64,000 bases of DNA, taken from Polaribacter filamentus (GTDB taxonomy: Bacteria; Bacteroidota; Bacteroidia; Flavobacteriales; Flavobacteriaceae). This document shows, in pieces, positions 25,698 through 44,792 of the stretch (its first letter is position 1; every line of letters starts with the position of its first letter). The stretch is taken from contig NZ_MQUA01000014.1 of assembly GCF_002943715.1 (NCBI RefSeq), positions 434,001 through 498,000 of the forward strand, in the 5' to 3' direction. The position numbers were made by a program, and so were the translations under genes. A model generated the notes under the pieces. The model saw only the letters and a list, made by a program, of their open reading frames with translations, did no database searches and was not told the origin of the DNA.

Positions 25698-25734
25698 AAT
25701 AGTTTTTTAAAAGTGCTAAGATAGAAAATTAATT

Positions 25735-25893
25735 TTAAAAAAATACCGTAAGGTCTTTTTTTTTGGTTTATAGAAATTAATCACACTATCCAAAGCTTCA
25801 TCGGTATCTTTATGAATAAAATCAGATTGATAATTTAAAATAACTTTCAAGTTACTATGCCCGAATTTTGCAATTGTATTATACTGATATAGG
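25735..25893 (-). pseudogene. C-terminal tail of a tyrosine recombinase (copy 1)
   Basis: The minus strand reads QYNTIAKFGHSNLKVILNY, then QSDFIHKDTDEALDSVINF and KKKDLTVFF stop. The GH...Y spacing (His to Tyr nine residues) matches the last catalytic residues of tyrosine recombinases, with Tyr as nucleophile. The rest of the gene is absent: an IS3-like end (ATAGGTTGACC at about 25888-25898) abuts it. A second copy of the tail lies at 32101-32259. Confidence 0.6.
25745..25755. promoter_or_regulatory. Second TetR-type operator, upstream of tetR
   Basis: ACCGTAAGGT at 25745-25754 differs by one base from the palindrome at 25075. It lies about 50 bp upstream of the tetR start; a TATCTTAG -10-like box (minus strand) lies between them. 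The whole block is duplicated near 32116. Autoregulation is inferred. Confidence 0.45.
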
Positions 25894-27357: not shown

Positions 27358-27554
27358 GCCTAACGGCTCGGCTATGGTTAGTACGGGAATTAAAAGTAAT
27401 TAATTTCCGATTAAGCGATTAGCCAAAACTTTTTTTTGTTTTATCTTTTTTGTTCTAAAGCCAAATCAAAAAGATTTGGCGGACTTACTAAGAATACACT
27501 AGACTTTGGGTTAAGCACCAAACCCAGTATTAATTATAGGCATTGTTGTAAGCC
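27358..27554 (-). repeat. attC-like site a3 (long type)
   Basis: The + strand runs from GCCTAACGGCTCGGCTATGG to ATTATAGGCATTGTTGTAAGCC. It is 77% or more identical by eye to a14. An internal hairpin AAGCCAAATC/GATTTGGC with flanking GGACTT is present. The right core GTTGTAAGCC is the exact complement of GGCTTACAAC at the 5' edge of OsmC copy 1. Confidence 0.8.
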
Positions 27555-28056: not shown

Positions 28057-28204
28057 CTTATGTACATTAAGATACATGGTTTACAAAAGTTAAAGATTAG
28101 ACGTTACACTAAATTCAGTAAATAAATCACAGATAGAAAGTCTGCGAGGACTTTCGCAAATTAACTAAAATCAGCAATTAATTTTATACGGTGTTGGCAA
28201 CTGG
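28057..28204 (-). repeat. attC-like site a4 (short type)
   Basis: The + strand starts near TGTACATTAAGATACATGG and ends TTTTATACGGTGTTGGCAACTGG. An internal hairpin AAAGTC/GACTTT is present. The first ~60 bp are nearly identical to a5 (GGTTTACAAAAGTTAAAGAT). The end abuts the racemase stop. Confidence 0.75.
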
Positions 28205-29510: not shown

Positions 29511-29658
29511 GCTGTACGTTAAGATACATGGTTTACAAAAGTTAAAGATTAGACGTTACACTAAATTAGTAAACAAATACGTGCCAGAGAAAATTCCGAA
29601 GGAATTTTCCAAATAAGCAACGACCAAAGCAATTAATTATACACGCTGTTGTAGCCAG
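29511..29658 (-). repeat. attC-like site a5 (short type)
   Basis: The + strand runs from GCTGTACGTTAAGATACATGG to TTATACACGCTGTTGTAGCCAG. The internal hairpin is AAAATTCC/GGAATTTT. The right core GTTGTAGCCA pairs with TGGTTACAAC at a6 (9 of 10), bounding the PhzF cassette; the PhzF stop begins at the next base. Confidence 0.8.
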
Positions 29659-30450
29659 TTATTCTATCCATAATGTTCCTTCCGAAAACGTTTTTGCCTT
29701 TCCAGCTATCAAGACCCTATTTTTTTTATTTGTGCATAACAACTTTCCTTTTCTAGCAGATAACTGAATTGCAGACATTTCTTTTTTATTCAGAACATTA
29801 CCCCAATATGGAATTAATGAAGCATGGGCAGAACCAGTAACAGGGTCTTCAAATATTGTTGCTTGAGGAATGAAGAATCTTGATACAAAATCAGAATTAT
29901 TTCCTTTGGAAGTTATTACTACACCTCCTGGGTCAATATTTTCTTTGTCAAATATGCTTTTATCTATTTTAATATTCCTAACATCTTGTTCAGTTTCATA
30001 GACTAAAATATAATCTCTCGACTTTAAAACTTCTTTCGGCTGTTTGTTAAGAGATGCTTTTATAAAATTCGGTAATTCCACTTTAACAGGATTCCTTTGA
30101 GGTAAATCCATTACATACATGTCGTTTTCAACGTGAACATACAATTGTCCACTTTTAGTATTGAAAACTATTTTGTCTTTATTATAATCTAAAATCGTTG
30201 TTAGAACATGAGCTGTTGCAATAGTTGCATGTCCACATAAATCAAGTTCTAAATCAGGTGTAAACCATCTTAACTCTATATCGTCTCCACTGTTGTAAAT
30301 AAAAAATGCAGTTGCGTCAACAGAATTTTCTTTTGCAATATTCTGAAGTAATTCATCTTCCAACCATTCATTTAGTGGCACAACTTTAGCAGGGTTTCCT
30401 CCGAATATTTTATCGGTAAAAGCATCTATTTGGTAATAATTTAATTTCAC
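29659..30450 (-). CDS. PhzF-family isomerase/epimerase (cassette gene)
   Basis: This is a 263-residue PhzF-like protein with both diaminopimelate-epimerase-type halves: YYQIDAFTDKIFGGNPAKVV, ELRWFTPDLELDLCGHATIA, then DPVTGSAHASLIPYW and LSARKGKLLC. The usual catalytic Glu of the N-L-S-E-T-A-F motif is not there: the sequence reads NSVDATAF, with Ala at that position and Asp next to it. It may act by another residue or do a different job. Complete frame; bounded by attC-like units a5 and a6. Confidence 0.88.
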   Translation of the reverse strand: MKLNYYQIDAFTDKIFGGNPAKVVPLNEWLEDELLQNIAKENSVDATAFFIYNSGDDIELRWFTPDLELDLCGHATIATAHVLTTILDYNKDKIVFNTKSGQLYVHVENDMYVMDLPQRNPVKVELPNFIKASLNKQPKEVLKSRDYILVYETEQDVRNIKIDKSIFDKENIDPGGVVITSKGNNSDFVSRFFIPQATIFEDPVTGSAHASLIPYWGNVLNKKEMSAIQLSARKGKLLCTNKKNRVLIAGKAKTFSEGTLWIE

Positions 30451-30470
30451 AGGATAAGTTTTTTTTAAAT

Positions 30471-30609
30471 TGGTTACAACGTGTATGTATATGATTTGTT
30501 ACGTATTTTAAGCACCTAATTTAGCAAATACAAACCGAATATAAAATCCGAAAGGATTTTCGCAAGTAGGCTTTTACCAGAAATTTTTTTTACACGGTGT
30601 TGCAAGTAG
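30471..30609 (-). repeat. attC-like site a6 (short type)
   Basis: The + strand runs from TGGTTACAACGTGTATGTAT to TTTACACGGTGTTGCAAGTAG. The internal hairpin is AAAATCC-GAAA-GGATTTT with a GNRA-type loop. Its first 90 bp differ from a7 at only about two positions. Confidence 0.85.
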
Positions 30610-30615
30610 TTTTTT

Positions 30616-31119
30616 TTATTCAGACTGTTTTTTAAAAATCATAACATAATCTTTCTTGTATTCAATTTTCATTTCAAATTCAGATATTGATATAATTTTA
30701 CTTATTGATTTGTCAAGAGAATTTCCTTTTTTATCTTTTTCCCATTTTCTATTAATCATTTTTTGTGTTGCAACAATTAATTTTCCTTGACGAGATTTTT
30801 TTGGTATTACCATTTCATATTCAATTTCATCTTCCGATTTCATTTGCTAATTTCCAGAATCAATATTTTCCAATGTAAATTGTTTGCTATATGTTCCATT
30901 TTTGTTGATTATTATATTTGGACTATTAGCTTTGACTTTCATTTCTTTTCCATTAGGATATTTTTTTATTATTTATTCGACAGATGTTTTTTCAGAATCG
31001 ATAGTTTTTAAATAATCCCATTTTCCGATTAATTTGTTTCTTATAGTTTTTGAAGTTTGAGCATTTAAGCTCGAAAAACACAAACAAAAGATAATTCCAA
31101 ATATTAATTTTACTTTCAT
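30616..31119 (-). pseudogene. Secreted lipocalin-like protein with two in-frame stops (cassette gene)
   Basis: One frame from 31119 opens with a signal peptide (MKVKLIFGIIFCLCFSSLNAQ) and LIGKWDYLKTIDSEK. It meets TAA after TSVE, continues IIKKYPNGKEMKVKANSPNI, meets TAG after IDSGN, and continues QMKSEDEIEYEMVIPKK to the stop at 30616. The GKWDY start and beta-rich length (~167 codons) resemble lipocalin-like domains. Both stops are one C-to-T change from Gln codons. Confidence 0.6.
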
Positions 31120-31121
31120 AA

Positions 31122-31460
31122 TTATTCAGCAATTTGTTTTTCAAATATAAGTTCACTGTATTTAGGATTTTTTTCTGAATAATAAACCTCAAATTTATCT
31201 CCGATTTTTACAAATTCTTTTTTAATCGTTAATTTCTGATTTTCGGTATATTTTTCTCCTTTTATTTGGAATTCATATTTTATAAATAAGCCTCTTTGAA
31301 ATCTCTCCTCAATTTTAATAACAGTCCCAATTGTGCTTTTTGAGTTTTTTAATTCGTTTTTTTCTGTGAAACTATTCCAAGCTCCAAAACTAATTAAAGA
31401 AATTATGAATATGATTAAAATCCATATTTGAAATTTGGTCTTTTTCTCCTTTTTTTTCAT
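31122..31460 (-). CDS. DUF3592-like membrane protein (cassette gene)
   Basis: This is a 112-residue protein with one N-terminal membrane helix (IWILIIFIISLISFGAW) and a beta-rich outside domain (STIGTVIKIEERFQRGLFIK ... VGDKFEVYYSEKNP-like). The motif order resembles DUF3592 proteins, of unknown function. Stop is 2 bp before the next start, so it is coupled to the damaged secreted gene. Both share one cassette between a6 and a7. Confidence 0.65.
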   Translation of the reverse strand: MKKKEKKTKFQIWILIIFIISLISFGAWNSFTEKNELKNSKSTIGTVIKIEERFQRGLFIKYEFQIKGEKYTENQKLTIKKEFVKIGDKFEVYYSEKNPKYSELIFEKQIAE

Positions 31461-31493
31461 TTTTTTTCATTTTTTTGAGCCAAGTGATAAATT

Positions 31494-31631
31494 ACTTACA
31501 ACGTGTATGTATATGATTTGTTGCGTATTTTAAGCACCTAATTTAGCAAATACAAACCGAATGTAAAATCCGAAAGGATTTTCGTAAATAGGCAAGAACT
31601 AGCAATAAATTATATACTTTGTTAGCTACAG
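31494..31631 (-). repeat. attC-like site a7 (short type)
   Basis: The + strand runs from ACTTACAACGTGTATG to ATATACTTTGTTAGCTACAG. Same internal AAAATCC-GAAA-GGATTTT hairpin as a6. The right core GTTAGCTACA is the exact complement of TGTAGCTAAC at a8, enclosing the cupin gene. Confidence 0.85.
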
Positions 31632-31664
31632 TTTTTTCTCAGAAGTAACTACTTTAAGTCCTAT

Positions 31665-32024
31665 TCAGTAAGATTGTTCTTGGATTGATTTGGTTATGGA
31701 AGACTTAACTTCTCCTGTATGCTTTGTTGTTTTAGTCTCTATTAACATAATTGAACATTCGTCTATTGAAGAAACTCTATGGTTAATTCCTTTTGGAACT
31801 ACCAACATATCTCCAGTTTTCATAGTCCTATTAGTTTCATTTTCGACTTCCATTAAAAGTTCACCTTCTATTATGTAAAATAGTTCATCCTCATTTTCGT
31901 GATTATGCCAAGGAACTTCTTGGCCTTTGATCTTGGCAATTTTCACATACTGGTTATTAACTTCTGTAACTATTTTTGGAGTGAAGTAATCTTTAACGTC
32001 TTCTAATTGTTCTTTTAGATTCAT
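31665..32024 (-). CDS. Cupin-domain protein (cassette gene)
   Basis: This is a 119-residue single cupin. Metal-site motifs are visible: PWHNHENEDELFYIIEGEL (two His and Glu) and VVPKGINHRV (third His). Such small cupins bind a metal or small ligand; the function here is unknown. Bounded by a matching pair of cassette edges (GTTAGCTACA / TGTAGCTAAC). Confidence 0.88.
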   Translation of the reverse strand: MNLKEQLEDVKDYFTPKIVTEVNNQYVKIAKIKGQEVPWHNHENEDELFYIIEGELLMEVENETNRTMKTGDMLVVPKGINHRVSSIDECSIMLIETKTTKHTGEVKSSITKSIQEQSY

Positions 32025-32042
32025 TTGATTTCGTTTTATAAT

Positions 32043-32081
32043 TGTAGCTAACGGACGTGTGTATTGTTTGTGCGTTTTATT
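32043..32081 (-). repeat. attC-like site a8, left part only
   Basis: TGTAGCTAACGGACGTGTGT and GTTTGTGCGTTTTATT match the beginning of the family. The rest is replaced from about 32082 by the duplicated tetR-upstream/recombinase-tail block and an IS3 end. Confidence 0.65.
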
Positions 32082-32230
32082 AAAGTGCTAAGATAGAAAA
32101 TTAATTTTTAAAAAAACCGTAAGGTCTTTTTTTTAGTTTATATAAATTAATCACACTATCCAAAGCTTCATCGGCATCTTTATGGATAAAATCAGATTGA
32201 TAATTTAAAGTTACTTTTTCGTATGTTTTT
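32082..32230 (-). repeat. Second copy of the tetR-upstream block
   Basis: AAGTGCTAAGATAGAAAATT, the ACCGTAAGGT box and CTTTATGGATAAAATCAG match 25708-25860 at about 93% by eye. The block carries the tetR promoter region and the tyrosine-recombinase tail, now detached from tetR and placed inside an attC-like site. Confidence 0.75.
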
Positions 32231-32259
32231 TTTCGCCAGGGTTCTTTTTGTGTTTTCAT
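32101..32259 (-). pseudogene. Chimera: IS3 orfA start fused to a tyrosine-recombinase tail (copy 2)
   Basis: This 52-residue frame begins MKTQKEPWRKKTYEKV, which resembles the opening of an IS3 orfA (compare KHPCPKKKYQKI in the element at 42340). From VTLNYQSDFIHKDADEALDS onward it equals the recombinase tail of copy 1. Just upstream (32284-32306) is an IS3 terminal repeat (TCAACCTATTTCAGGA). The IS3 element lost its body while its end and first codons stayed. Confidence 0.6.
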
Positions 32260-32324
32260 AAGTGACTATTATTAAGTGTTTAATTTTTAGTCAACCTATT
32301 TCAGGAAAGTACATGCGTTAAATT

Positions 32325-32517
32325 ACACACAACGGGTTGTGTATGGCTTCGTTGCGTATTTAAAGGTAATTTTTTCGGATTAGCACAAGCCAAATTTTTA
32401 CATTTTGTTTTTATCTTTCATTTTTAATTCAAATTTAAAAATTTGGTGATCTTTGAAAATATGCTTTAACTTTGGTTAGGCAATTACCAGCAATGAGTTA
32501 TACAAGGTGTTCTCTGC
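32325..32517 (-). repeat. attC-like site a9 (long type)
   Basis: The + strand runs from ACACACAACGGGTTGTGTAT through GTTGCGTATTTAAAGG to TTATACAAGGTGTTCTCTGC. An internal CAAATTT/AAATTTG hairpin is present. Right core GTTCTCTGC is the exact complement of GCAGAGAAC at a10, bounding the EamA-LysR cassette. Confidence 0.8.
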
Positions 32518-32562
32518 AGGCTTTTTATATGGATTAATAAAATCTAACTTATATTTATTAGT

Positions 32563-33424
32563 TCATTTTTTTAAATTAAAAATTAGCACACCACAAATTG
32601 TTATGATTCCTCCAATTATGGTAGACGTAATTGGTATTTCTTTTATCCAAATAGCTCCAATAATTATTGTTATTATTGGAATAATGTATAAGAATACAGT
32701 TGCTGATTGTACATTCATTTTTGACAAAACATAAGTCCAAGTTAAATAACCAATTGAGCCTGGAAAAACACCAAGATATAAAACTGACAAATGATTATAT
32801 ATGCTTGCTGTTTTTAAATTTTCTGTGTTTTCTAATAATAAAAAAGGTAACAAACAAAAGGTTCCAATCCACACAGAGTAACAAATTAAACTAAGAGGCG
32901 AGTATTTTTTTAATAATGGTTTTTGAAGTAAAAAAACACACTTTGAGAGAAAGCTGCAAGTAGGATTAAAAAGATACTCTTATTTAGATTTAACGCACCT
33001 CCCTCTGCAAAACAAATTAAACCAACACCAAAAAGACTGATAATAGTTCCAAGATAAGCTTTAGAATTTATTTTTTCTTTTAAAAATATTATAGAAAGTA
33101 ACAATGTTAACATTGGAACAGTATTTATTATAAAACTAGCTGCACTAACAGTCACATTTAATTCGCCATAATTTAATGCAAGATTATATATTGTAATACC
33201 TGTAAATCCTATAAAAAAAATCTAGGTAAATCTTTTAAAATTATGCGATCAATTTTTTTAAAAAACGAAATTAATAGAAGTGTTAAGGAAGCAATTATAA
33301 ATCTCCAAACAGATAATTGAATCGGTGTATATCCATCTAATGCTGCTTTTATTCCTACAAATGCAGAAGCCCATAAAATGATAGTAATTATTAATGAGAG
33401 ATATACTAAAGGTTGTTTTGTCAT
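32563..33424 (-). pseudogene. Second EamA/DMT transporter, two frameshifts (cassette gene)
   Basis: Three frames (33209-33424, 32910-33155 and 32563-32874) are consecutive parts of one EamA transporter: LIITIILWASAFVGIKAALD; then SAASFIINTVPMLTLLLSII with FLKEKINSKAYLGT; then LYLGVFPGSIGYLTWTYVLS and IKEIPITSTIIGG. Breaks fall at the A/T run near 33215-33225 and the A7 run near 32929-32935. Divergent from the LysR gene at 33565, a common transporter-regulator pair. Confidence 0.8.
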
Positions 33425-33564
33425 ACAATTATTAATTATAAATTAATGTCGTCAAAAATATTAGTAATTGATATCTCGGCAAATTTTTATAACTGAAAAA
33501 TTTTTATTTATAACTGAAAAATTTTCAGTGAAGGTATATTTTATTTTGATGTAGCTTTACATTT

Positions 33565-34455
33565 ATGGAAATCAAATATTTTAGATTAATAAAAACCATT
33601 ACCGAAGAGGGGAGCATTGTTAATTCATCTAAAAGGTTATTTTTAACTCAATCCGCTTTAAGTCATCAATTAAAGGAGTTAGAGGAACAACTTGGTTTTA
33701 AAGTGTTTCATAGAGCTCGAAATAAATGGGAGTTAACAGAGGAGGGTAATGAGTTATATAAATTAGCAAATAATATTTTTGCCAGTATTGAAAAGAGTTT
33801 TGATAAGATTCAGAAAATAACAACGGGTTCGGTAGGGAGTATTGGAGTTAGTACAAAGTGCTTTTCTTTTTATCAAGGATTGCCTAATTTTATTCAAAAA
33901 ATGGGATTATTATATCCTGAAATTACTGTTGATCTAATTCTTGAAGCTACCCATCAACCCATTGCAAAGATTTTATCAAATGAAATTGATATAGCCATAG
34001 TTACATCAAACCCTGAAAACGAGTTATTATTAAGTGTTGAAGTCTTTGAAGATGAAATTTTTGCTATTATGCATAAAGAAAATTTATTAAATAAAGTTGA
34101 ATTTCTTGATGTTAGTTGTTTTTCTGATATACATCTAATTATCCACTCCTTTCCTTTAGAAACGGTTTCTGTTTATGAACAATTTTTGAATCCAAGTAAA
34201 ATTATGCCTTTTAAAATTTCCGCTATTCCACTTACTGAGGTTGCTTTAGAAATGGTTAATGCTAATATGGGAATATTATGTATGCCAAAGTGGGCTTTAA
34301 AATCATTTAAATTATCAGATGATTTAGTTTACAAGAGAATTGGTAAAAATGGTTTAAAAAGAAGTCATTTTTTAGTCATCCGTAAGTCTGATAAAACTAA
34401 AAAATATATTCAAGATTTCATTTCAAACTTTACTGATGAATTTTCAACGGACTAG
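33565..34455 (+). CDS. LysR-family transcriptional regulator (cassette gene, reversed)
   Basis: This is a 296-residue LysR-type regulator. The N-terminal HTH (FRLIKTITEEGSIVNSSKRL, FLTQSALSHQLKELEEQLGF) is followed by a substrate-binding domain (GSIGVSTKCFSFYQGLPNFI ... NEIDIAIVTSNPEN). It resembles MetR-like members. It is divergent from the broken EamA transporter and is the only ordinary cassette gene on the + strand. A TAACTGAAAAATTTT repeat at about 33490-33527 is a candidate binding site. Confidence 0.9.
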   Translation: MEIKYFRLIKTITEEGSIVNSSKRLFLTQSALSHQLKELEEQLGFKVFHRARNKWELTEEGNELYKLANNIFASIEKSFDKIQKITTGSVGSIGVSTKCFSFYQGLPNFIQKMGLLYPEITVDLILEATHQPIAKILSNEIDIAIVTSNPENELLLSVEVFEDEIFAIMHKENLLNKVEFLDVSCFSDIHLIIHSFPLETVSVYEQFLNPSKIMPFKISAIPLTEVALEMVNANMGILCMPKWALKSFKLSDDLVYKRIGKNGLKRSHFLVIRKSDKTKKYIQDFISNFTDEFSTD

Positions 34456-34467
34456 TTTTTTTAGCTT

Positions 34468-34653
34468 GCAGAGAACGGTTTGTATAAGAATAGTAAGGGA
34501 TTAAAATGCACTTAATTTTCGAATTAGCACTTAGCCAAATTTACCGTTAATTTTCTTTTAACCGTCAAATTGTAAATTTGGCGGACTTTGCAAAATGTAC
34601 TGCACTTTCGGTCGAGCATTTAACCTTTATTATTTTTATACATTGTTATCTCC
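34468..34653 (-). repeat. attC-like site a10 (long type)
   Basis: The + strand runs from GCAGAGAACGGTTTGTATAA to TTTTTATACATTGTTATCTCC. The internal hairpin CAAATTGTAAATTTGGCGGA matches the long-type loop. The right core lies within the last codons of the DUF4386 gene. Confidence 0.85.
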
Positions 34654-35349
34654 TTTTTTGATGTGAGATTGTTGGGTCTTTACTCCTTTTATTAAAAGCC
34701 AAAAGATAATTGAAAATTCCCCAATCGCCAAAGGAACTATCAAAATAGGAAAAATAATTTCTTTATAAAGTGGAAAAAGTAATGAAGTAAAACTATCAGT
34801 CAAATAAGCAAAACACCCAATTATTAAGAAAATTCCTATAATTTTTGGAATAAATTTCGACTTAATAACTAGCAGTCCAAGTGGATAAAGCCAAAGCCCC
34901 CAAAATATTCCAACAATAAAAATCCCATGTTCGTACAAATTTAGGAACACCATCATAATAGAATTTAATTGGTTTTCATCAAAAATGGTTAGATAATCAG
35001 CCCCACTAACAAGTATCTGGGCTGCAACTAGATTAAGTATATTCAGGAAAGCTATTGGCACCGAAATCGTAACCAATGTAACCATCAGCCTAGCGTGTTT
35101 GGGGTTAACCCCTTTAAGTAAGCGATTTAGAGACAAGACCAAAAAGACAAAAATCGTCTGGCTGATTAGATTACTTATCATACTTAAGCGAAAAAGTAAT
35201 TCAGAATCCATAATGTTATTGGCTGTTGCTGTTGCGTTTCCCGCTACCATAATATTGGAGGGTACATACATGATACCAAAAGCACCTGTTATTCCCATTA
35301 ATAGATACATTAATCCCGCTATTCTTGCGTTTTTTTTCTTTGAGTTCAT
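34636..35349 (-). CDS. DUF4386 membrane protein (cassette gene)
   Basis: This is a 237-residue protein with about six membrane helices. It begins KKKNARIAGLMYLLMGITGA and has WGLWLYPLGLLVIKSKFIPK, both typical of DUF4386. Function unknown. Its last codons (GDNNV, stop) are made from the attC-like end GATAACAATGTATAA, an overlap expected for integron cassettes. Confidence 0.88.
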   Translation of the reverse strand: MNSKKKNARIAGLMYLLMGITGAFGIMYVPSNIMVAGNATATANNIMDSELLFRLSMISNLISQTIFVFLVLSLNRLLKGVNPKHARLMVTLVTISVPIAFLNILNLVAAQILVSGADYLTIFDENQLNSIMMVFLNLYEHGIFIVGIFWGLWLYPLGLLVIKSKFIPKIIGIFLIIGCFAYLTDSFTSLLFPLYKEIIFPILIVPLAIGEFSIIFWLLIKGVKTQQSHIKKGDNNV

Positions 35350-35564
35350 TTTCTTACCTTTTTGATTGATAATTTCAAGACGATTTAGTAATTAGAATGT
35401 TATAATAGAACATACGATTTTTCTTGATTTTAATTGCAGATAACGGTTTTTATATGAAAAGTAGCGGATTTTTAAGCACTTACTTTTCGGATTATTGCTG
35501 ATTTTAAATTTATAGAATTTATTTTCGTTTAAGCATTTAAACCGCTATTTTTTATATACCGTGT

Positions 35565-37419
35565 GTGTGCCCAGTATGGGCATCTTTAACTTATCGCAAG
35601 ATAAGTTATTCAACTAGAGGGTGCAAGTCCCTTATGCACAGGAGTAACGTCTTGAAGCATTAGTAAGTCGCAAGGGTGGTAACTGCGAAGTTACATCTGA
35701 AGAAAGCGAGACTACAAAACTCGTTACTGACGAACAGAAATCGTATACAGCGGCATATTTACTTGGGTAAGCAAGCACATCATTGTAACGCCCAAAAGAG
35801 TAACAAAAGGGTAAGTATGTAGATACGGCAGGAATTGAGTGAAAGAAGATGCCATTACCTGGGGAGGTCTCTAGAGCCACGAGTTGGCTGTATAGAGAAG
35901 TCAGCAGAAGTCATAGTACTTACAGGAAACGAGGAGGGAAAAACCCTCACGGTCTCACAAGTAAGGAAGGACTGAACATTAAATTACGTTGTAATTCGAC
36001 TAGGAGGCATTGCTAGCCTAGTCTTAGCTCAACAGGAGTAAACAAATTATTTAAAACTATGATTGCCCAAGTATTAGAAGCTACGAATCTTTATAAAGCA
36101 GCACGTCAAGTTATGCGCAATAAAGGAGCAAGCGGAATAGACAGTATGTCGCATCAAAAACTCCCTGAATACATTAGGGAAAATAGGTCAGAACTACTGC
36201 TATCCATTTGTAATAATAGCTATGTACCACAAGCAATTTTAGGAGTAACGATCCCTAAAGGAAATGGTAAAACCCGACTTTTAGGAATACCAACGGTAGT
36301 AGACAGATGGTTACAACAGGGGGTAAACCAACAATTAATGACTAAGTTCGAATACGAATTTGAAACCTTTAGTTACGGATTTCGCCCACAGAAGAACATC
36401 CAAAAGGCAGTACTACAAGCCCAGCGATACATCAATGATGGCTATCAGGATATTGTAGATATTGACTTAAAAGGATTCTTCGATGAAGTAGACCATTGCA
36501 TCCTACTGCAACTTATTTACAACAAAGTACAATGCCGAACCACCTTGCGTTTAATCCGAAAATGGCTTAGAGTTCCCATTTCAATAAATGGAAAACTTTA
36601 TAAACGCCGAAAAGGAATTCCACAAGGCAGTCCAATAAGTCCATTACTATCTAATATTATATTAGACGTTCTGGATAAAGAAATGCAAAAACAAGGGGTA
36701 CGATATGTGCGTTATGCAGACGATTTTAGTATGTATGCTAAAAGCAAAAGCGAGGCAAAACGAATAGGAAATAGCATGTATTTGTTTCTTAGAGACAAAT
36801 TAAAGCTCCCTATAAATGGTGCTAAAAGTGGTATACGCAGACCTGTAAATTTTAAATTGCTAGGACACGGTTTTGTGCCAATCTATAAGAAAGGCATAAA
36901 AGGGCAGTATCAACTAGTTGTAAAACAGGAAAGTTGGGAAAAGTTTAAGCGCAATCTTAAAAGTTTAACCAAGAAAACCAAACCAATGTCTTTACTAGAA
37001 AGACTCGAGCGACTAAATCAAGTTTGCAGGGGCTGGATGAATAATTACCGATTAACAAACATTTATGCTAAACTTAAAAAGTTGGATGAATGGTTGCGAA
37101 ATAGGTTACGATATTGCATTTGGCATGATTGGAAAAAACTAGAAAGAAAACGTAAAAGCCTAATTCGATTAGGAATAGAAAACGGACAAGCGTATGCTTG
37201 GAGTAGAACAAGAATGGGAGGCTGGGCAGTAGCCCAAAGCCCTATACTTAAAACTACAATTACCCTTTCTATACTTAAAAGAAAAGGTTACAAACCCATG
37301 GTAGATTACATAAATAAGAAGCAAACTTCAATTTGGTGAACCGCCGTATACGAGACCCGTACGTACGGTGGTGTGAGAGGCGCACTGGCTACTTTTTGGT
37401 AGTCAGCCGTCTACTCGAT
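35565..37419 (+). mobile_element. Group II intron inserted in an attC-like core
   Basis: The 5' end GTGTGCCCAGTATGGGCA and the 3' end CTACTCGAT fit group II intron boundaries (GUGYG ... AY). Domain V is readable at about 37339-37379: ACCGCCGTA pairs with TACGGTGGT, with CGC at the triad position as in group IIC introns. Domain VI follows (GGCTAC...GTAGTC). The intron encodes one reverse transcriptase/maturase and lies on the strand opposite to the cassette genes, between GT and T of the GTTATC core. The ~490 bp before the ORF hold RNA domains I-III and part of IV. Confidence 0.85.
36059..37339 (+). CDS. ltrA: Group II intron reverse transcriptase/maturase
   Basis: This is a 426-residue protein. 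RT motifs are in order: RNKGASGIDSMS, IPKGNGKTRLLGIPTVVDRW, FSYGFRPQKNIQKAV, DIVDIDLKGFFDEVDH, GIPQGSPISPLLSNIILDVL, and the catalytic RYVRYADDFSMY. The maturase/thumb region follows (LERLNQVCRGWMNNYRLTNI). There is no HNH endonuclease domain, so it would rely on RNA-guided insertion, as in group IIC. All catalytic Asp residues are present, so it looks active. Confidence 0.93.
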   Translation: MIAQVLEATNLYKAARQVMRNKGASGIDSMSHQKLPEYIRENRSELLLSICNNSYVPQAILGVTIPKGNGKTRLLGIPTVVDRWLQQGVNQQLMTKFEYEFETFSYGFRPQKNIQKAVLQAQRYINDGYQDIVDIDLKGFFDEVDHCILLQLIYNKVQCRTTLRLIRKWLRVPISINGKLYKRRKGIPQGSPISPLLSNIILDVLDKEMQKQGVRYVRYADDFSMYAKSKSEAKRIGNSMYLFLRDKLKLPINGAKSGIRRPVNFKLLGHGFVPIYKKGIKGQYQLVVKQESWEKFKRNLKSLTKKTKPMSLLERLERLNQVCRGWMNNYRLTNIYAKLKKLDEWLRNRLRYCIWHDWKKLERKRKSLIRLGIENGQAYAWSRTRMGGWAVAQSPILKTTITLSILKRKGYKPMVDYINKKQTSIW

Positions 37420-37424
37420 TATCT

Positions 37425-37931
37425 TTAGTTTTTTATTATTTCAAAGATTCTTCCAGTATTTATATCTGTGTTTTCTGTCCAAACATTTGTGTCATTATAC
37501 CAAACTTTATTACAAACTGTGTGATTATCTCCATATCTATAATTTGTTTTAATAGTATCTGTTTCCGTATCATTCCATTCAATATATGTAACTGCATTTT
37601 CCATTATATAAGTATTTGGAAATAGTTGAAAAGCATAAATATCTGAACCAGAATCTTCGGGTGTTATAATTTTAAAGTTTCTTGAAGCATCTAAATTAGA
37701 ATTATAAACTTCTTCAATTTCTCCATTTTCTTTTAAGTAGAAAATTTTTATAGGTTCACTTAAATATGCATTTGGATTGTTAGGGTTTAACAAGTCGTTT
37801 CCATTTGAATCTTTAAATGTGAAAATTATATCCGTGTCTAAATTATAATAATCGTTATCATTATTATTGTCATCTGAACTGCAAGAAACTATTAGTATAG
37901 TTGCTAGTAGTAAAAAAATTAATTTTTTCAT
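37425..37931 (-). CDS. Lipoprotein partner of the C10 protease (cassette gene)
   Basis: This is a 168-residue lipoprotein: MKKLIFLLLATILIVSCSSD with Cys as the anchor, then an Asp/Asn-rich linker and a beta-rich domain (DTDIIFTFKDSNGNDLLNPN ... TYIEWNDTETDTIKTN). No known family. It begins 11 bp after the C10 protease stop and shares its cassette. In this family the neighbouring gene is often a protease inhibitor, so that role is possible. Confidence 0.65.
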   Translation of the reverse strand: MKKLIFLLLATILIVSCSSDDNNNDNDYYNLDTDIIFTFKDSNGNDLLNPNNPNAYLSEPIKIFYLKENGEIEEVYNSNLDASRNFKIITPEDSGSDIYAFQLFPNTYIMENAVTYIEWNDTETDTIKTNYRYGDNHTVCNKVWYNDTNVWTENTDINTGRIFEIIKN

Positions 37932-37942
37932 AAATTTATTTT

Positions 37943-39262
37943 TTAAGGTTTAATTCTATATATGCATTCTCTATTATATTGAAAGTTTGGATTAACCGCA
38001 TTACCGTCAACTAAAATATTTACGCCATTTACCCAAAGATGGTTTTTGTAAAACCAACCATTACCTGCATTGTTCCAGCCCCAATTCATATGTAACCATT
38101 CATATCTGTTTTCTTGTTGGGTGTATTCATATGTTGTGCCTTCATTGTAAATATATAAATCATATTGTTGTTTGTAACCATCACAAACCCAAGCGTGACC
38201 ATCTTGATAGCTTGTCTGTTTCCAAAACCAAGTTCCACTTGTTTCAAAAGAATGATAACCATCCATATAAACAGGGCGATTGTACATATAAATTTCTTGC
38301 TTTACTGTGCTAAAATTATAAGAAGAATATGTCGCAGTAGAAGAATATCCGTAATCATTAATTAAAGAATTTTTTGCATCTTCGGAATCTGCTCCAGAAC
38401 TAGATGCTGAATAATTCATGTTTACATTAATACCAATGTCAGACATTAGTGATGCAATTTCTAAACCTGTATTTGTCGTGAAAGGACGGTTTGGCATACC
38501 TGCCCAATTAAAATTATTGGGCCATTCATGATAATGCATTATTTGCGCTGTAGCTACTGCAACACAACCAGTTGGGTTATTGTTTGGGGTGAAATTATTA
38601 TATGGAAAATTTTGTCCCCAAGTTGTTTGCATTAATGGTCCAACTTGTTCATTTACTGTGTGACTATATCTCGCATTTGAGTTTGAATTATTACCACTTC
38701 CTGTTTCTCCGTCATCATCAGGATTAGTATCGTCATCTGGAAAAGGCATAACATAGTACCATTGTTTTTCAACCTCTTCAATAGGTTCTCTTGCTTCTAA
38801 AATATCATTGAAAACAATATTTTCAGCAATCCAACTTTTTAATCCATCAGGGGAATTTTCATTAAATTCAAAAGCACCTGTTTCTGAGTGGGCTGCAATA
38901 GGCACGTTTTTTGAGTTTGAAGTAACTAAAACAAATCCCTCAGGTTCCATATTAACAATATAGATACCTGTTTTACTATTGTAGTCTTTTATTGTTTCAA
39001 TTGAAGATATAGTAGTTTTTGTTTGGGTACTGTTTTTTTGTAGATAGTTTTGTGATTTGTAGGTTTTATTAAAAAAAATTAAAGCGACTTCTTTAGCAAC
39101 TTCTTCTGTTATTTCTGTTCCTTGAATTATTTGATTGGAATTTGAATTTAGTTCTCCGTCAATGGGTTCATTATCACAGGAATAAAATGATAATAATGTA
39201 ATAGCGAAGACGAGTTTCAGTCCGTTAATCAGTTTGTTTTTTTTCATAATTCTTGGATTCAA
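37943..39262 (-). CDS. C10-family (streptopain-like) cysteine protease, lipoprotein (cassette gene)
   Basis: This is a 439-residue protein. The signal peptide ends in LLSFYSC, a lipobox. A propeptide follows (VAKEVALIFFNKTYKSQNYL, GFVLVTSNSKNVPIAAHSET), then the catalytic domain with QTTWGQNFPYNN and NPTGCVAVATAQIMHYHEWP, where the Cys is the nucleophile. The His lies in GHAWVCDGY and the Trp motif is LHMNWGWNNAGNGWF. It would be surface or periplasmic. The start is either 39262 or the ATG five codons in. An IS30 element sits just upstream and may have cut its promoter. Confidence 0.9.
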   Translation of the reverse strand: MNPRIMKKNKLINGLKLVFAITLLSFYSCDNEPIDGELNSNSNQIIQGTEITEEVAKEVALIFFNKTYKSQNYLQKNSTQTKTTISSIETIKDYNSKTGIYIVNMEPEGFVLVTSNSKNVPIAAHSETGAFEFNENSPDGLKSWIAENIVFNDILEAREPIEEVEKQWYYVMPFPDDDTNPDDDGETGSGNNSNSNARYSHTVNEQVGPLMQTTWGQNFPYNNFTPNNNPTGCVAVATAQIMHYHEWPNNFNWAGMPNRPFTTNTGLEIASLMSDIGINVNMNYSASSSGADSEDAKNSLINDYGYSSTATYSSYNFSTVKQEIYMYNRPVYMDGYHSFETSGTWFWKQTSYQDGHAWVCDGYKQQYDLYIYNEGTTYEYTQQENRYEWLHMNWGWNNAGNGWFYKNHLWVNGVNILVDGNAVNPNFQYNRECIYRIKP

Positions 39263-39267
39263 CGTTG

Positions 39268-40340
39268 TAACGCAACAAAACGTTATTAATTTTTGATGTT
39301 ACTAAGCTACTAATTTTAGTTCAATATTTATCATTTCAAGAGGTGTTTTATACCCAATAATTTTTCGTGGTCTATTATTAAGTTTTTCCTGAATAATTTG
39401 GAGTTGATTTTCACTAATTTCATTAAAGTTTGTTCCTTTAGGTAGATACCTTCTTATGAGTCCATTTGTGTTTTCATTAGTACCTCTTTCCCAAGAAGAA
39501 TATGGATGAGCAAAGTAAATTTTCATACCGGTATTTTCAGTAATTTTTTCATGTCTTGCCATTTCAATTCCATTGTCATAAGTCATAGATTTTTTAAGAT
39601 TATTGTTTAATTGATTTAACTTTTTAGAAAATTCTTTAGCCACTTCATCTGCTTTTTTAGAGTTTAATTTTACTATTATAGTAAATCTTGTTTTGCGTTC
39701 AACAATGGTTCCAATAGCACTTTTATGATCTTTTCCAATGACTAAATCACCTTCCCAATGTCCAGCTTCAAGTCTAAGTTCAATATGTCCAGGTCTATTG
39801 TCAATACTGACTTGATTGACTATTTTACTTCCTCCACCACGTCTTTTTTTAGAGGGGTTTCTTGTTGTTTTTTTACGAACGAGCAGCTTGATTAGTTTTT
39901 TATTTAAACTAGCTTGTGGTCTTGTATAAATGTGTCTATATATTGCTTCGTGAGAAATAGCCATTATAGGATCATTCGGATACAATTCTTTAAGTCTCCC
40001 AGAAATTTGTTCAGGAGTCCAATTGGATAAAAGTCCTTTATATACAAAAAATCTTAACAGAGAATATGTACTTATTTTATCTCTATTCCTTTTGTTAGCG
40101 TACTCATCTTTTGCATTCCAATGTGCTAGTTCAGCATCATAAATATCATTATTATCTAGCACCCATTTATTGATTTCTCTGGAGATTGTAGAAGGTGCTC
40201 TATCAAGAGTTTTAGTAATGTATGTTTTGGTCTTTTTTTCGTTTAAAAGTGTCTGAATTTGGACTCTTTCTTTAAGGGTAAGTCGTCTGTGTTTTTTTAC
40301 TATCATTTTACAAATCTATAAATTTAGATTTGTTGCGTTA
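39268..40340 (-). mobile_element. IS30-family insertion sequence
   Basis: The terminal repeats TAACGCAACAAA (39268-39279) and, inverted, TTTGTTGCGTTA (40329-40340) bound one complete transposase gene. It lies between the C10 protease start and the cassette's 5' edge (AAAGATAAC at 40373), so it inserted into an existing cassette. A target duplication is not obvious. Confidence 0.85.
39302..40306 (-). CDS. IS30-family transposase
   Basis: This is a 334-residue transposase. The N-terminal HTH (KHRRLTLKERVQIQTLLNEK, RAPSTISREINKW) is followed by the DDE domain: HWEGDLVIGKD, SMTYDNGIEMARHE and ERGTNENTNGLIRRYLPKG. All three acidic residues are present, so it appears intact. Confidence 0.93.
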   Translation of the reverse strand: MIVKKHRRLTLKERVQIQTLLNEKKTKTYITKTLDRAPSTISREINKWVLDNNDIYDAELAHWNAKDEYANKRNRDKISTYSLLRFFVYKGLLSNWTPEQISGRLKELYPNDPIMAISHEAIYRHIYTRPQASLNKKLIKLLVRKKTTRNPSKKRRGGGSKIVNQVSIDNRPGHIELRLEAGHWEGDLVIGKDHKSAIGTIVERKTRFTIIVKLNSKKADEVAKEFSKKLNQLNNNLKKSMTYDNGIEMARHEKITENTGMKIYFAHPYSSWERGTNENTNGLIRRYLPKGTNFNEISENQLQIIQEKLNNRPRKIIGYKTPLEMINIELKLVA

Positions 40341-40372
40341 AGTTATTGAATGGAAGATTTTGGTTTTAAATT

Positions 40373-40508
40373 AAAGATAACGGTTTAGGGTATGGAAAGT
40401 TGCGATTTTGTAATCGTAATTTTCCGATGTTTAAATTTAATATTTTTTTATTTTAGAAAAGTTTTATTTTACTGATTTAAGCAATTTTTTATACCCATTG
40501 TTATATGC
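40373..40508 (-). repeat. attC-like site a12
   Basis: The + strand runs from AAAGATAACGGTTTAGGGTA to TTTTTATACCCATTGTTATATGC. The left core is the exact complement of the intron-split core a11; the right core pairs 8 of 9 with GCACATAAC at a13. Confidence 0.8.
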
Positions 40509-40513
40509 TGACT

Positions 40514-40942
40514 TTATTTTTTGAATTCCCAAAACACATTGATTATTTTCCAATTCCCTTCAAGCTTTACGAGGTGAATATATTCAGTCCATCTAGTTTT
40601 TGGGTATCCGGTTTTCAAACTCGCACTGGCCATATTCCCATAAACGATAATATTTTCTACGACATTATATTGATGCTCTATTTTAAACTTTTGTTTTGTT
40701 AACATAAGTTCTTTTAGTTTTTCAGGAGGGAAATCATCGCTTAATGTACCGTCTTGATTCAGTCCTCTTTTAGCAAGCCGTGGATGTAATGATTCATTCA
40801 TTGCGTCATAATTGTTCTCAAAGAAATTTTCTATATAGTTTAAAATTGTCTTTTCTATTACAGCATTTTCATCTGTTATTGATTGAGCCTGAGAAGTCGC
40901 TACAGAAATTGATAGGATAACAAGGATAATTATTCTTTTCAT
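40514..40942 (-). CDS. Secreted NTF2/SnoaL-like protein (cassette gene)
   Basis: This is a 142-residue protein with a signal peptide (IIILVILSISVATSQAQS) and a SnoaL/NTF2-like fold (DENAVIEKTILNYIENFFEN, MNESLHPRLAKRG, YIHLVKLEGNWKIINVFWEF), as in the Lumazine-binding-like nuclear transport factor group. It probably folds in the periplasm; role unknown. The IS3 element lies 30 bp upstream of its start. Confidence 0.75.
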   Translation of the reverse strand: MKRIIILVILSISVATSQAQSITDENAVIEKTILNYIENFFENNYDAMNESLHPRLAKRGLNQDGTLSDDFPPEKLKELMLTKQKFKIEHQYNVVENIIVYGNMASASLKTGYPKTRWTEYIHLVKLEGNWKIINVFWEFKK

Positions 40943-41093
40943 TTATGTGTTTTTAATTATTAATGTCTTCTCCTGAAATAGGTTGTCAATTTTTGTTATG
41001 AATTTTATGATCAAAAATAGTGTTTAGTAATCGGAACATTGATAACTTTTTTAAAAAATTCCCTCCGGGTTTTAAAAAAGTTACCAACATTCC

Positions 41094-41960
41094 TTACGTA
41101 TTTAAAATAGATTTTTTCATTTTTCTATAAGATTTGTATTTGTGTTGTTGGTTTTTGTGAGCAAACTCGGGTGTTTTCAACTCTACTGAGTAATGTCTTC
41201 TATGGTTGTTATAAATTTCAATAGCCTGTTTGACCATTTTTTGAGCTGTTTTAAAGTTTGGAATCGTTTTCCCTAATCCAAATTCTTGTTTTAGAATTCC
41301 ATTAATCCTTTCAGCTACAGCATTTTCGTATGGGCTTGAGTTTTGAGTTGTACTTAAAGTCATGTTTTTTGCTTTGGCAAAATCTGCAAAATCAGGACAG
41401 CAATATTGTATCCCTCTATCAGAGTGATGAATTGTGTTTTGATGTTTGTAAATTCGATTATTGCCAGCCATTTCCAGAGCATCTTTTACTAGTTTTACTT
41501 TCATATTTGTATCTATTTTATAGCCCATTACTTTTTTAGAATAGGCATCCGTAACCAGCGCTAAATAGGCATGTTGTGATGCTAATTTAATGTAGGTTAT
41601 ATCGCTTACAAATACTTGTTCTGCGTTTATAATTTCAAGGTTTACAGTTAAATCTTCTGATTTGTAAAAGCCATGATTAGAGTCAGTTGTAATATGATAT
41701 TTTTTAGTTTTCTTAATCAATAAGCCATAGTTTCTCATTAAGGCGTAGAACTTGTCACGCCCCATTTTAATGCCGTTTTTGATTAAATCACCCTTGATAT
41801 CCAAATATACTTTTGCACAACCATAACGAGGCTGTAAAAGCCTAATGGGCTTTATTAGCTCAAAGATAATAAGTGCTTGTTTTTGTTCTAATTCTTGTTT
41901 TTTGATTCTTTTGTAATAAGCCTGTCTGCTTATACCGAAGCATTGGTGGATCCATTTCTC
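41094..41960 (-). CDS. IS3-family transposase orfB
   Basis: The open frame from the first ATG is 41094-41804. Recognisable orfB sequence (FGISRQAYYKRIKKQELEQK, PIRLLQPRYGCAKVYLDIKG) extends to about 41960, made by frameshifting from orfA. The DDE domain is complete: VFVSDITYIKLASQ, TIHHSDRGIQYCCPDF, AVAERINGILKQEFG. Appears functional. It integrates the IS with the help of orfA. Confidence 0.9.
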   Translation of the reverse strand, partial: EKWIHQCFGISRQAYYKRIKKQELEQKQALIIFELIKPIRLLQPRYGCAKVYLDIKGDLIKNGIKMGRDKFYALMRNYGLLIKKTKKYHITTDSNHGFYKSEDLTVNLEIINAEQVFVSDITYIKLASQHAYLALVTDAYSKKVMGYKIDTNMKVKLVKDALEMAGNNRIYKHQNTIHHSDRGIQYCCPDFADFAKAKNMTLSTTQNSSPYENAVAERINGILKQEFGLGKTIPNFKTAQKMVKQAIEIYNNHRRHYSVELKTPEFAHKNQQHKYKSYRKMKKSILNT

Positions 41961-42340
41961 TTTGAAAGGTCTTTCATTTTTTTCTCCACTTCTTTGTACA
42001 GTGCTTCGGGCAATAACTTTTTTGCGAATCCAAGATTTGTACTATTCTCAAAATCAGCGATTATCATTTGTTGAAAGTCTTTAACGAACTCGAGTTCTTC
42101 GACACGTTCTTTGAGTTTTTTAAGTTCTTGATTTTTACTCATTGTTTTAGAATTTTGTTCAAAGGAACGCAATTTTTTCATCCAATAGGTAATAGATGAT
42201 CGAGAAATTCCATGCAATTTAGCTGCATAATTTACAGAAATCTGACCGTTTGTAATTTGGTCAATGATGGAAAGTTTGAGATCAAAACCAATTTTTTGAT
42301 ACTTCTTTTTTGGACAGGGGTGTTTTTTTGTTAGTGTCAT
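41930..42340 (-). CDS. IS3-family transposase orfA
   Basis: This is a 136-residue protein with an HTH (FDLKLSIIDQITNGQISVNY, AAKLHGISRSSITYWMKKL) and a leucine-zipper coiled coil (SKNQELKKLKERVEELEFVK). It provides end recognition and, fused by -1 frameshift, the transposase OrfAB. The overlap with orfB is at about 41930-41960. Confidence 0.88.
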   Translation of the reverse strand: MTLTKKHPCPKKKYQKIGFDLKLSIIDQITNGQISVNYAAKLHGISRSSITYWMKKLRSFEQNSKTMSKNQELKKLKERVEELEFVKDFQQMIIADFENSTNLGFAKKLLPEALYKEVEKKMKDLSKRNGSTNASV

Positions 42341-42402
42341 AAGTTGCTAAAAGTGTTTAATTTTTTGTCAACCTATTTCAGGAATTGTCATTTTTTCAGC
42401 TT

Positions 42403-42631
42403 GCACATAACGTGATTGTATATGGCAAGTAGGGCAGTAGAAAACAATAAACTTTCTAGTTTGCACTGAGCCAAAACGTTGTATTTTGCTTTTTATTTAT
42501 TCATTCTTAAAAGCCAAGTTTTTAAATATTTCCCTATCGGGTAATCTAACGATTTGGCGGTGTTTGTAAATAGCACTGAACTTACCTAAACCACCAAAGG
42601 CCCTATTTGCTATATATAGTGTTACCCAACG
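42403..42631 (-). repeat. attC-like site a13 (long type)
   Basis: The + strand runs from GCACATAACGTGATTGTATA to GCTATATATAGTGTTACCCAACG. An internal GCCAAG...GATTTGGCGG stem is present. It borders the IS3 element directly on the left. Confidence 0.7.
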
Positions 42632-42711
42632 TTCTCATTTTTATGGTAAAGTTATATGTCTCTGTTTCCGCAATCGTTTGTCCATTGGGGTTAAGAGCTT
42701 TACCTCTTGTT

Positions 42712-42757
42712 TCTGCAATCAAGACCTGTTAATGAATTAACAGGTCTTGATTGCAGA
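42712..42757. terminator. Perfect 21-bp hairpin downstream of the collagen-like gene
   Basis: TCTGCAATCAAGACCTGTTA (plus one A) at 42712-42732 is followed by a TGAA loop and its exact complement at 42737-42757. It lies about 40 bp after the collagen-like stop. Placement suggests transcript termination or 3'-end protection, but there is no T-run and the stem is unusually long and perfect. Confidence 0.5.
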
Positions 42758-42798
42758 ATGAAAGATCATAGTCTCTGAAGACTCTTAAAAGTTCTAGT

Positions 42799-44232
42799 TT
42801 AGAAATTTACTACTACCCAATCAGTACCATCATAAATCAATAAAGCTAAACTAGACCCGAATAGATTTTGAAATGTATCAGTTCCGAAGTTCCCGAAACC
42901 TCCGAAAAATAAGATATTTCCAGTTACACTGACAATAGCGCTTGTATTATTAGTAGTTAAATATAAACGTCTTCCTGTTGTAGGACTTGCTGGTAAAGTA
43001 ATTGTTCTTAAACCATCGATTCTGACAAGTTGGTCTTCATCAGTAATTGTTACGTTCGATGAAACTAGAGTAACGATTAAGTTGCCAGCACCAGCAGGTC
43101 CTGTTGGTCCTGTTGCACCCGTTGGTCCAGCTACTGTTGAAGCAGCTCCTGTTGGTCCTGTTGTACCCGTTGGTCCAGCTACTGTTGAAGCAGCGCCTGT
43201 CGCACCCGTTGGTCCTGTAGGTCCAGCTACTGTTGAAGCGGCTCCTGTCGCACCCGTTGGTCCTGTAGGTCCAGCTACTGTTGAAGCGGCTCCTGTCGCA
43301 CCCGTTGGTCCTGTAGGTCCCGCTACTGTTGAAGCAGCACCTGTCTCACCCGTTGGTCCTGTTGGTCCAGCCACTGTTGAAGCAGCTCCTGTCTCACCCG
43401 TTGCGCCCGTTGGTCCAGCTACTGTTGAAGTAGCTCCTGTTGGTCCTGTTGCACCCGTTGGTCCAGCTAGTGTTGAAGCAGCTCCTGTTGGTCCTGTTGC
43501 ACCCGTTGGTCCAGCTACTGTTGAAGTAGCTCCTGTTGGTCCTGTTGCACCCGTTGGTCCAGCTACTGTTGAAGCAGCTCCTGTTGGTCCTGTTGCACCC
43601 GTTGGTCCAGCTACTGTTGAAGCAGCTCCTGTTGGTCCTGTTGCACCAGTTGGTCCAGCTACTGTTGAAGCAGCTCCTGTTGGTCCTGTTGCACCCGTTG
43701 GTCCTTGAGGTCCAGCTACCGTTGAAGCAGCTCCTGTTGTTCCTGCAGCACCAGCTGCTCCTGTAGGTCCAGCTACTGTTGAAGCAGCACCTGTAGGTCC
43801 AGTTGCACCCGTTGGTCCAGCTATTGAGCTACCAGATGTTTTTGCATAAAGAGCAAAAGGTACACTCATTAATTGAGTTGTACCTGTAATAGTATAAGTT
43901 GTTCCTCCTGTTGGGTCAGTTTCGGTTTTTATAAAATAAGTATCGTTTCCCCAATCAATGATACTAAAATCTCCACTTACCAATGTCCCAGTTCCAATTT
44001 CTAAACTTACCAAACCATTGGCATTGGTTGTTGGAGTTTGCGTTTCTACATAAACAGGTGTTCCTGTTGAACCGCCTTGTAGTATACTTATTTGCATACC
44101 TACAGGTTGAGTAGTTACTAATGCATTACCTGCATCCCTAACCACTGCCTGATAACTCATTTTTTCGGGTGCTTGTGCAAAAACGGATGCTGTTAGCATT
44201 AGTGCTGCAATTATTGAATATATCTTTTTCAT
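42799..44232 (-). CDS. Collagen-like repeat secreted protein (cassette gene)
   Basis: This is a 477-residue protein. The signal peptide ([14 protein letters not shown]) is followed by a globular domain ([20 protein letters not shown] ... [14 protein letters not shown]) seen at the start of many flavobacterial collagen-like proteins. Then come about 15 units of a 16-residue G-x-y pattern ([16 protein letters not shown]) that could form triple helices, and a C-terminal domain ([20 protein letters not shown]). It probably forms a surface or adhesive fibre. It lies 5 bp after a T9SS-tail protein and shares its cassette. Confidence 0.88.
43100..43830. repeat. 48-bp coding minisatellite in the collagen-like gene
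   Basis: About 15 near-identical 48-bp units (for example GGTCCAGCTACTGTTGAAGC on the + strand) encode the G-x-y repeats. Units differ at few codons, so the array can expand or shrink by slippage or recombination. The opposite strand also stays open, giving a long spurious frame. Confidence 0.9.
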
Positions 44233-44237
44233 TGTTT

Positions 44238-44714: not shown

Positions 44715-44792
44715 AGTTTTATAAAGTTTAATTATTTGTCAAAGGTATTATTATTAATATTATGTGGTTTTTTTATTGGTTTTTAAATGTTT

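Follow-up and report, generated by a model that had tools for sequence, protein, structure and literature searches.

Paired cassette edges point to an integron-type system with an I2-less recombinase in Polaribacter filamentus and its relatives

A 64,000-nucleotide stretch of the Polaribacter filamentus genome (assembly GCF_002943715.1, contig NZ_MQUA01000014.1, positions 434,001 to 498,000; hereafter the window) carries an array of genes separated by related repeat units. This array and its relatives in other genomes are very probably the cassettes of an integron-type system whose recombinase lacks the I2 insertion of the integron integrase IntI and most of whose sites show no sign of extrahelical bases. 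The initial annotation, made from the sequence alone, had described cassette-specific edge pairs along the array, with pairing within a cassette and not between the two ends of the same unit, and had argued that a simple repeat family could not explain this. What we add is that such edge pairing is a hallmark of integron cassettes and that the linked recombinase is not a classical IntI.

Edge pairing within cassettes

Every edge pair named in the initial annotation is present in the sequence. In the window we scored the six variable positions after GTT at the cassette edges (beside GTT/AAC); the match is complete (6/6) for the cupin, EamA-LysR and C10 protease cassettes, the last of these read across an intron, 5/6 for the PhzF, NTF2 and DUF4386 cassettes and the cassette at 30.6–31.5 kb, and 4/6 for the collagen-like cassette. 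The earlier list had overlooked one perfect pair, that of the DUF1835 cassette (44978 with 45748; 6/6), and had omitted two cassettes at 27.5–29.5 kb with degenerate, unpaired right edges; own edges pair in 9 of the 11 window cassettes. The interval first assigned to the pairing, 31621–34476, spans just two cassettes of an array that extends from about 27.3 to 45.9 kb.

The permutation test that had been proposed, of within- against between-cassette pairing, gave an excess within cassettes. For the nine well-defined cassettes 48 of 54 positions match, against a permutation mean of 23.4, and the only one of the 362,880 permutations to score as high is the true pairing itself; with all 11 cassettes included the count is 52 of 66 (mean 27.7), a value reached in none of 1,000,000 shuffles. 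Between the two ends of one unit 21 of 48 positions match across the units, which is the chance level. The GTTRRRY core of integrons is not enriched in the window (108 occurrences versus 149 expected), so that a scan for the canonical motif alone would miss this array.

The stretch at 31490–31640, around the unit at 31.5 kb (U5 in the feature list below), was used as the query for a family search; of 199 genomes of the family, 134 contain DNA related to it. The related loci are dense arrays with up to 23 full-length units per 20 kb, all in a single direction per locus. The window and its related genomes together gave 187 cassettes, after 16 pairs of neighbours that had no clear anchors and spacings beyond 60–2500 nt had been set aside. 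Their six positions match in 1046 of 1122 cases, against a mean of 496 (sd 22, maximum 578) in 2000 shuffles within locus, and here also pairing between the ends of a single unit is at the chance level. The step from within-cassette pairing to cassettes, for which a simple repeat family is inadequate, is therefore supported, the permutation test having given the same answer in the window and in its relatives.

The match profile of the arms corresponds to a helix some 14 nt long that stops sharply at position 15 and has a G.T wobble (88%) at position 11. A strict rule that uses this arm pattern only, and not the unit sequence, found 323 cassettes in the direction of the array, one in the opposite direction and one after shuffling (45 loci, 845 kb; seven loci overlapping others were left out); in the window it gave no opposite-direction matches and none outside the array. 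The arms are diverse, with 84 distinct N6 sequences among the 174 cassettes that match at five or more of the six positions. When the attC R-box consensus RYYYAAC / GTTRRRY was tested on these arms it did not describe them, the box GTTRRRY fitting 14 of the 174. The sites of the Rufibacter cassettes (L186, 10288–12273) are just about 55 nt long and have near-perfect inner stems.

Mobile piece, computed site folds and linked recombinase

The counts of ownership, open reading frames (ORFs), strand folds, spacers and extrahelical bases given here leave out the seven overlapping loci and partial or weak unit matches. We compared 49 pairs of cassettes with similar bodies. In 39 of them likeness was greater for the downstream than for the upstream unit, mean unit similarity being 0.94 on the 3' side of the gene, 0.74 on the 5' side and 0.70 for random units. 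Where bodies were at least 99.5% identical (12 pairs), the downstream unit was at least 0.95 alike in all 12 and the upstream unit was at background (0.71 or less) in six. In 10 pairs inspected, identity continues through the downstream CGTT and ends 0–1 nt beyond it; in four inspected pairs with clearly different upstream units, identity starts at CGTT. The crossover point of integrons is the CGTT/GTT of the site, and the 10 pairs place the crossover at the same GTT. Unit ownership and these limits of identity together indicate that the mobile piece is the gene with its 3' site, with the crossover at the integron position. The cassette inference of the initial annotation thereby gains independent backing, in that duplicated cassettes carry their own 3' site and have their crossovers at CGTT.

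As in integrons, the cassettes stand in tandem and face one way, each with a gene and a 3' recombination site. The longest ORF is forward in 192 of 219 cassettes and reverse in one, the other 26 having no ORF of 70 amino acids (aa); the median distance is 27 nt from edge to gene start and 12 nt from gene to site.

Counted in register, the gene strand has 488 A.C mismatches in its stems versus 14 G.T mismatches, and the A.C/G.T ratio is about 1.3 to 9 with the arms slid. This excess of A.C on the gene strand means that G.T pairs are kept on the opposite (bottom) strand, whose pairing is the conserved one. For 209 reconstituted circular sites (cassettes with at least 5/6 edge match), folds computed with DNA parameters favoured the bottom strand in 207; stability was also higher for the circular than for the array form in 202. 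An unpaired central spacer, as in attC, is present and measures about 3 and 6 nt. The inner stem pairs at 14 of 14 positions, without a break in register, in 195 of 300 units. In IntI, I2 binds an extrahelical base of attC; in 231 of the 300 units allowing such a base adds no pairing. The AACG next to the box is the same in these sites as in integrons.

A tyrosine recombinase like that of the window's genome was found in 126 of the 199 family genomes (E 1e-40), with relatives in 125 of 395 genomes sampled from the phylum (E 1e-60). Unit and recombinase co-occur, both being present in 102 of the 199 genomes and neither in 41 (p 1.3e-7). Units lie in 34 of 40 recombinase-centred loci and always 3' of the recombinase (19 of 20 loci picked from unit-bearing genomes, 15 of 20 in a mixed set), so that in these 34 the recombinase gene heads the array as in integrons. 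In the same set L100 and L108 show weak opposite-strand unit matches that overlap proper ones. A further 80 named loci came from one contig scan; eight carry units, on the same side and strand of the recombinase, and the arm rule finds cassettes on the 3' side in 21 of the 80, Rufibacter among them, with opposite-strand matches at L163 (1), L206 (4) and L217 (1). At L206, from a Firmicutes metagenome-assembled genome, four arm-paired cassettes lie 5' of an I2-less recombinase, on the reverse strand at about 613–4467 in locus coordinates; this is the divergent arrangement of typical integrons.

Within 200 nt of the recombinase stop codon we looked for a partner of the first cassette edge. At a score of at least 7, such a partner is present in 21 of 34 loci, 26–169 nt past the stop codon, against 28 of 1122 foreign-arm controls; at a score of at least 8 a locus has its own partner edge in 14 of 34 cases versus 3 of 1122 with the arms of other loci. 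This putative attI-like point thus lies beside the recombinase gene, as attI does in integrons. By eye, ATATAACnAGTT is common to 11 loci at this place, and an inverted repeat lies shortly 5' of the first cassette's GTT in four further loci (L113, L116, L133 and L135). In a Chryseobacterium plasmid (L138) a related recombinase is followed by genes in the same direction, perhaps a mobile form.

In the window's genome the unit model has 120 matches (E 0.001). By hand count 56 of them stand on one strand of another contig (C13:1,451–1,535 kb), in a run spanning 84 kb that adjoins a recombinase gene at C13:1,449,371–1,450,522. A second recombinase gene (L010, G000:C13:419006–420043) is split by an ORF that looks transposase-like by eye, and G000:C12:3066–7901 and C13:410527–415364 have equal unit spacing and scores, perhaps through duplication or as an assembly copy.

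The IntI-specific insertion I2 was absent from all 18 array recombinases aligned with IntI1, and the same 18 have an extra N-terminal domain that IntI1 lacks. Two catalytic motifs are 65–66 aa apart in 39 of 39 recombinases measured versus 107 in the four IntI rows measured. The one protein scanned against family models scored 205.9 with TIGR02249, below the curated cut-off of 265 bits, and 221.8 with NF040815, just above the cut-off of 220; over the whole genome NF011946 and TIGR02249 found nothing above cut-off. Identity to IntI1 is 31.6% over residues 105–363. The predicted structure (mean pLDDT 80.9, pTM 0.55) has an N-terminal domain of strands and helices, and a fold search with residues 102–366 of the model returned XerA, VchIntIA and XerH chains all at Z of about 19–22, which does not discriminate between them.

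In a careful tree of 59 of the 73 rows of a quick tree (N-terminal parts trimmed, root on the Xer side assumed), IntI is supported at 100/99 (11 rows) and the Bacteroidota array recombinases at 100/97; the array recombinases alone reach 92/73 and fall outside the IntI clade. IntI, the Bacteroidota array recombinases and two other array recombinases group together at 98/93, apart from Xer, XerA and XerS, and three archaeal relatives branch with Xer. The rows left out were L194 (long branch), L200, L137 (near-identical to L209), L189, L196 and nine flavobacterial ones. The quick tree was less clear: L206 and L217 had no resolved place, and the array group needed two changes and had the clostridial XerA-like L200 inside it.

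Proposed mechanism and rival explanations

We propose that each edge is one half of the recombination site of its cassette. A free cassette would be a circle, starting GTT-N6-N-A-NNN and ending NNN-C-N-N6-AAC around an imperfect palindrome of about 55–215 nt. When single-stranded in the cell, its bottom strand would form a single long hairpin, consisting of an outer box of 14 bp, a spacer (about 3 and 6 nt) that stays unpaired, and a long inner stem. The tyrosine recombinase encoded at the head would then insert the circle, between C and GTT, into the attI-like site just past its own stop codon. Insertion beside the recombinase would let the array grow from that end with its genes in the same direction, and in the linear array each site would have one arm from each neighbour, which would leave unit ends unpaired and cassette edges paired. 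On this proposal the system would act as an integron does. It is not a classical integron, since the recombinases aligned lack the defining domain of IntI and the arms mostly depart from the usual R-box consensus.

A classical integron, with an IntI and attC sites merely diverged in sequence, would have the same layout and crossover, the AACG beside the box and the bottom-strand preference, and the recombinase is after all related to IntI1; we nevertheless consider it improbable given the missing I2, the short motif gap, the TIGR02249 score, the few arms that fit GTTRRRY and the separate tree groups of IntI and array recombinases. Very unlikely, too, is an Xer- or phage-type element in which host XerCD moves the cassettes at a dif-like double-stranded site (IMEX-like). 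The catalytic fold is as near to XerA as to VchIntIA, and the available source text on the CTX phage describes a hairpin used with XerCD, but here a dedicated recombinase stands at the array head and the careful tree puts it with IntI, apart from Xer, XerA and XerS. If the units were simply a miniature transposon or a dispersed repeat family, with ends that pair by chance, their many copies and their likeness in sequence would be accounted for; this can hardly be upheld when the arms are cassette-specific, the unit ends pair at chance level, the full-length units of each array are unidirectional and each unit moves together with the gene on its 5' side.

Several observations weigh against the integron-type interpretation that we prefer. 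Recombination itself, presumably carried out by the linked recombinase, was not observed. The window's array lies on a contig other than that of the 84-kb run and has no adjoining recombinase, no more than 3 of its 11 cassettes pass the strict arm rule, and the two cassettes at 27.5–29.5 kb have unpaired edges (2/6 each, with approximate anchors). Unit and recombinase are discordant in part of the family, 32 of the 199 genomes having the unit without the recombinase and 24 the recombinase without a detected unit, and in the phylum sample the unit model matches 76 of 395 genomes, fewer than the 125 with the recombinase. The ownership effect comes from 42 same-genome pairs, many of one L052 cassette family; in the 7 cross-genome pairs upstream and downstream units do not clearly differ, and the remaining 6 of the 12 near-identical pairs have alike upstream units as well. 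Fold energies are computed values, at least 10 of the 14 arm positions pair with the other arm in 173 of the 209 modelled bottom-strand folds and not in all, and 69 of the 300 stems gain 1–3 pairs from one extrahelical base and may have a bulge there.

In the accessible text of PMC4792948 and PMC7790495 the I2 helix is described as the innovation that gave integron integrases single-strand recombination, which poses a chicken-and-egg question: was I2 selected before attC, or attC before I2? The insertion is reported, in the part of PMC8138268 available, to be not fully conserved in an integron-like subgroup and yet essential for function. We see an even chance that the I2-less integrons together are the sister lineage of classical integrons and that folded-hairpin cassettes predate I2 and its extrahelical-base partners. 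This lineage is widespread in Bacteroidota; a Firmicutes metagenome-assembled genome (L206) holds at least one relative. If so, hairpin cassettes before I2 would answer the question of integron origin. Large arrays linked to an I2-less recombinase that branches beside IntI allow this question to be tested in living organisms, and such a recombinase, without the protein part considered essential for integrons, could show how they originated.

Features of the window array and comparison with known systems

The features of the array are as follows; units are attC-like, and gene families are those of the Pfam entries given.

27362–27547, minus strand: unit U1, long type, by fold and alignment (the plus strand is the bottom strand); by analogy with the duplicated-cassette comparison it would belong to the cassette to its right
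28087–28197, minus strand: unit U2, degenerate left edge (model match E 2.9e-4)
29522–29650, minus strand: unit U3, degenerate left edge
29648–30480, minus strand: cassette body with PhzF-like gene (PF02567); edges GTTGTAGCCAG / reverse complement (rc) GTTGTAACCAA
30478–30601, minus strand: unit U4, short type
30599–31502, minus strand: cassette body without assigned family, from edge scoring
31500–31623, minus strand: unit U5, short type
31621–32052, minus strand: cassette body with cupin gene (PF07883); edges GTTAGCTACAG / rc GTTAGCTACAA
32050–32511, minus strand: unit U6, interrupted at about 32074–32305; by eye the inserted piece looks like the remnant of an insertion sequence
32509–34476, minus strand: cassette body with putative EamA-type remnant and LysR regulator, the latter on the plus strand (PF03466, PF00126)
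34474–34647, minus strand: unit U7, long type
34645–35444, minus strand: cassette body with DUF4386 gene (PF14329)
35442–35564, minus strand: unit U8 as far as ...CGTGT, the site of the intron
35565–37419, plus strand: group II intron within the GTT of U8 (GT/T) (Rfam RF02001, RF00029; 5' boundary by eye)
37420–40381, minus strand: cassette body with C10 protease (PF01640); an ORF at 39302–40306 looks like a transposase by eye
40379–40502, minus strand: unit U9
40500–42411, minus strand: cassette body with NTF2-like gene (Lumazine_bd_2, PF12893); ORFs at 41094–42340 transposase-like by eye
42409–42623, minus strand: unit U10, long type
42621–44798, minus strand: cassette body with collagen-like gene; 48-nt tandem repeat at 42997–43860
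44796–44980, minus strand: unit U11, long type
44978–45750, minus strand: cassette body with DUF1835 gene; edges GTTAGCGGTTG / rc GTTAGCGGTTA
45748–45873, minus strand: unit U12, the final unit detected in the array

Fragments at 25702–25847 and 32074–32217, the latter inside U6, are 80–93% alike and may be remnants of one insertion sequence. At gathering thresholds Rfam gave two group II intron matches and one tRNA in the window, and no attC-like family. The RF00029 match of the intron ends at 37419, just before TATCTTT, and the joined exons read CGTGT/TATC (5' end placed by eye). IIC-attC introns are described, in the available text of PMC7923331, as inserting at TTGT/T of R'' in the bottom strand, against the direction of the cassettes; the U8 intron has this place and strand, on the bottom strand at R'' and opposite to most cassette genes, and its target GTGT/T is one base off.

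Among the literature matches listed no title or opening of an abstract describes these arrays, subscription journals and preprints being outside the scope of the search. Bacteroidota are already counted among the integron-bearing phyla (PMC8618304, PMC9668308; portions of text). In the accessible part of PMC9024848, IntegronFinder 2.0 names one complete integron in Bacteroidetes proper, that of Salinibacter, compared with the unit in 134 of 199 genomes of a single family here. The available text of PMC2426708 places intI in the Bacteroidetes/Chlorobi group, with intI selected by the additional domain or the intI patch, which suggests that surveys choosing intI by that domain would overlook such systems.

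Integrons, including sedentary chromosomal ones, are like the present arrays in their compact cassettes with a 3' palindromic site and GTT crossover, unidirectional arrays running from the recombinase gene, bottom-strand bias and the G next to the box AAC. They differ in the recombinase, which here is without I2 but carries an additional domain at its N terminus; in the R box, here a 14-bp cassette-specific arm with a G.T wobble that mostly does not fit RYYYAAC/GTTRRRY; in the spacer, here about 3 and 6 nt; and in the extrahelical bases, of which there is mostly no sign here. In Treponema integrons, as far as the source text at hand describes them, the integrase is transcribed toward the cassette array as it is here, but they are reported as intI systems, and I2 is absent here.

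CALIN are clusters of attC sites without an integrase, and the window's array resembles them in having no adjoining recombinase; it differs in that its sites are mostly off the canonical R box and in that a recombinase with its own array lies elsewhere in the genome. The recombinase just passes the cut-off of NCBIfam NF040815, recomb_XerA_Arch ('site-specific tyrosine recombinase/integron integrase'); this is a protein name only, and the three archaeal relatives branch with Xer. The CTX phage, in the source passages available, likewise presents a single-strand hairpin that is recombined by an I2-less tyrosine recombinase, XerCD; unlike the present system it is a phage genome without a recombinase of its own and forms no cassette arrays.

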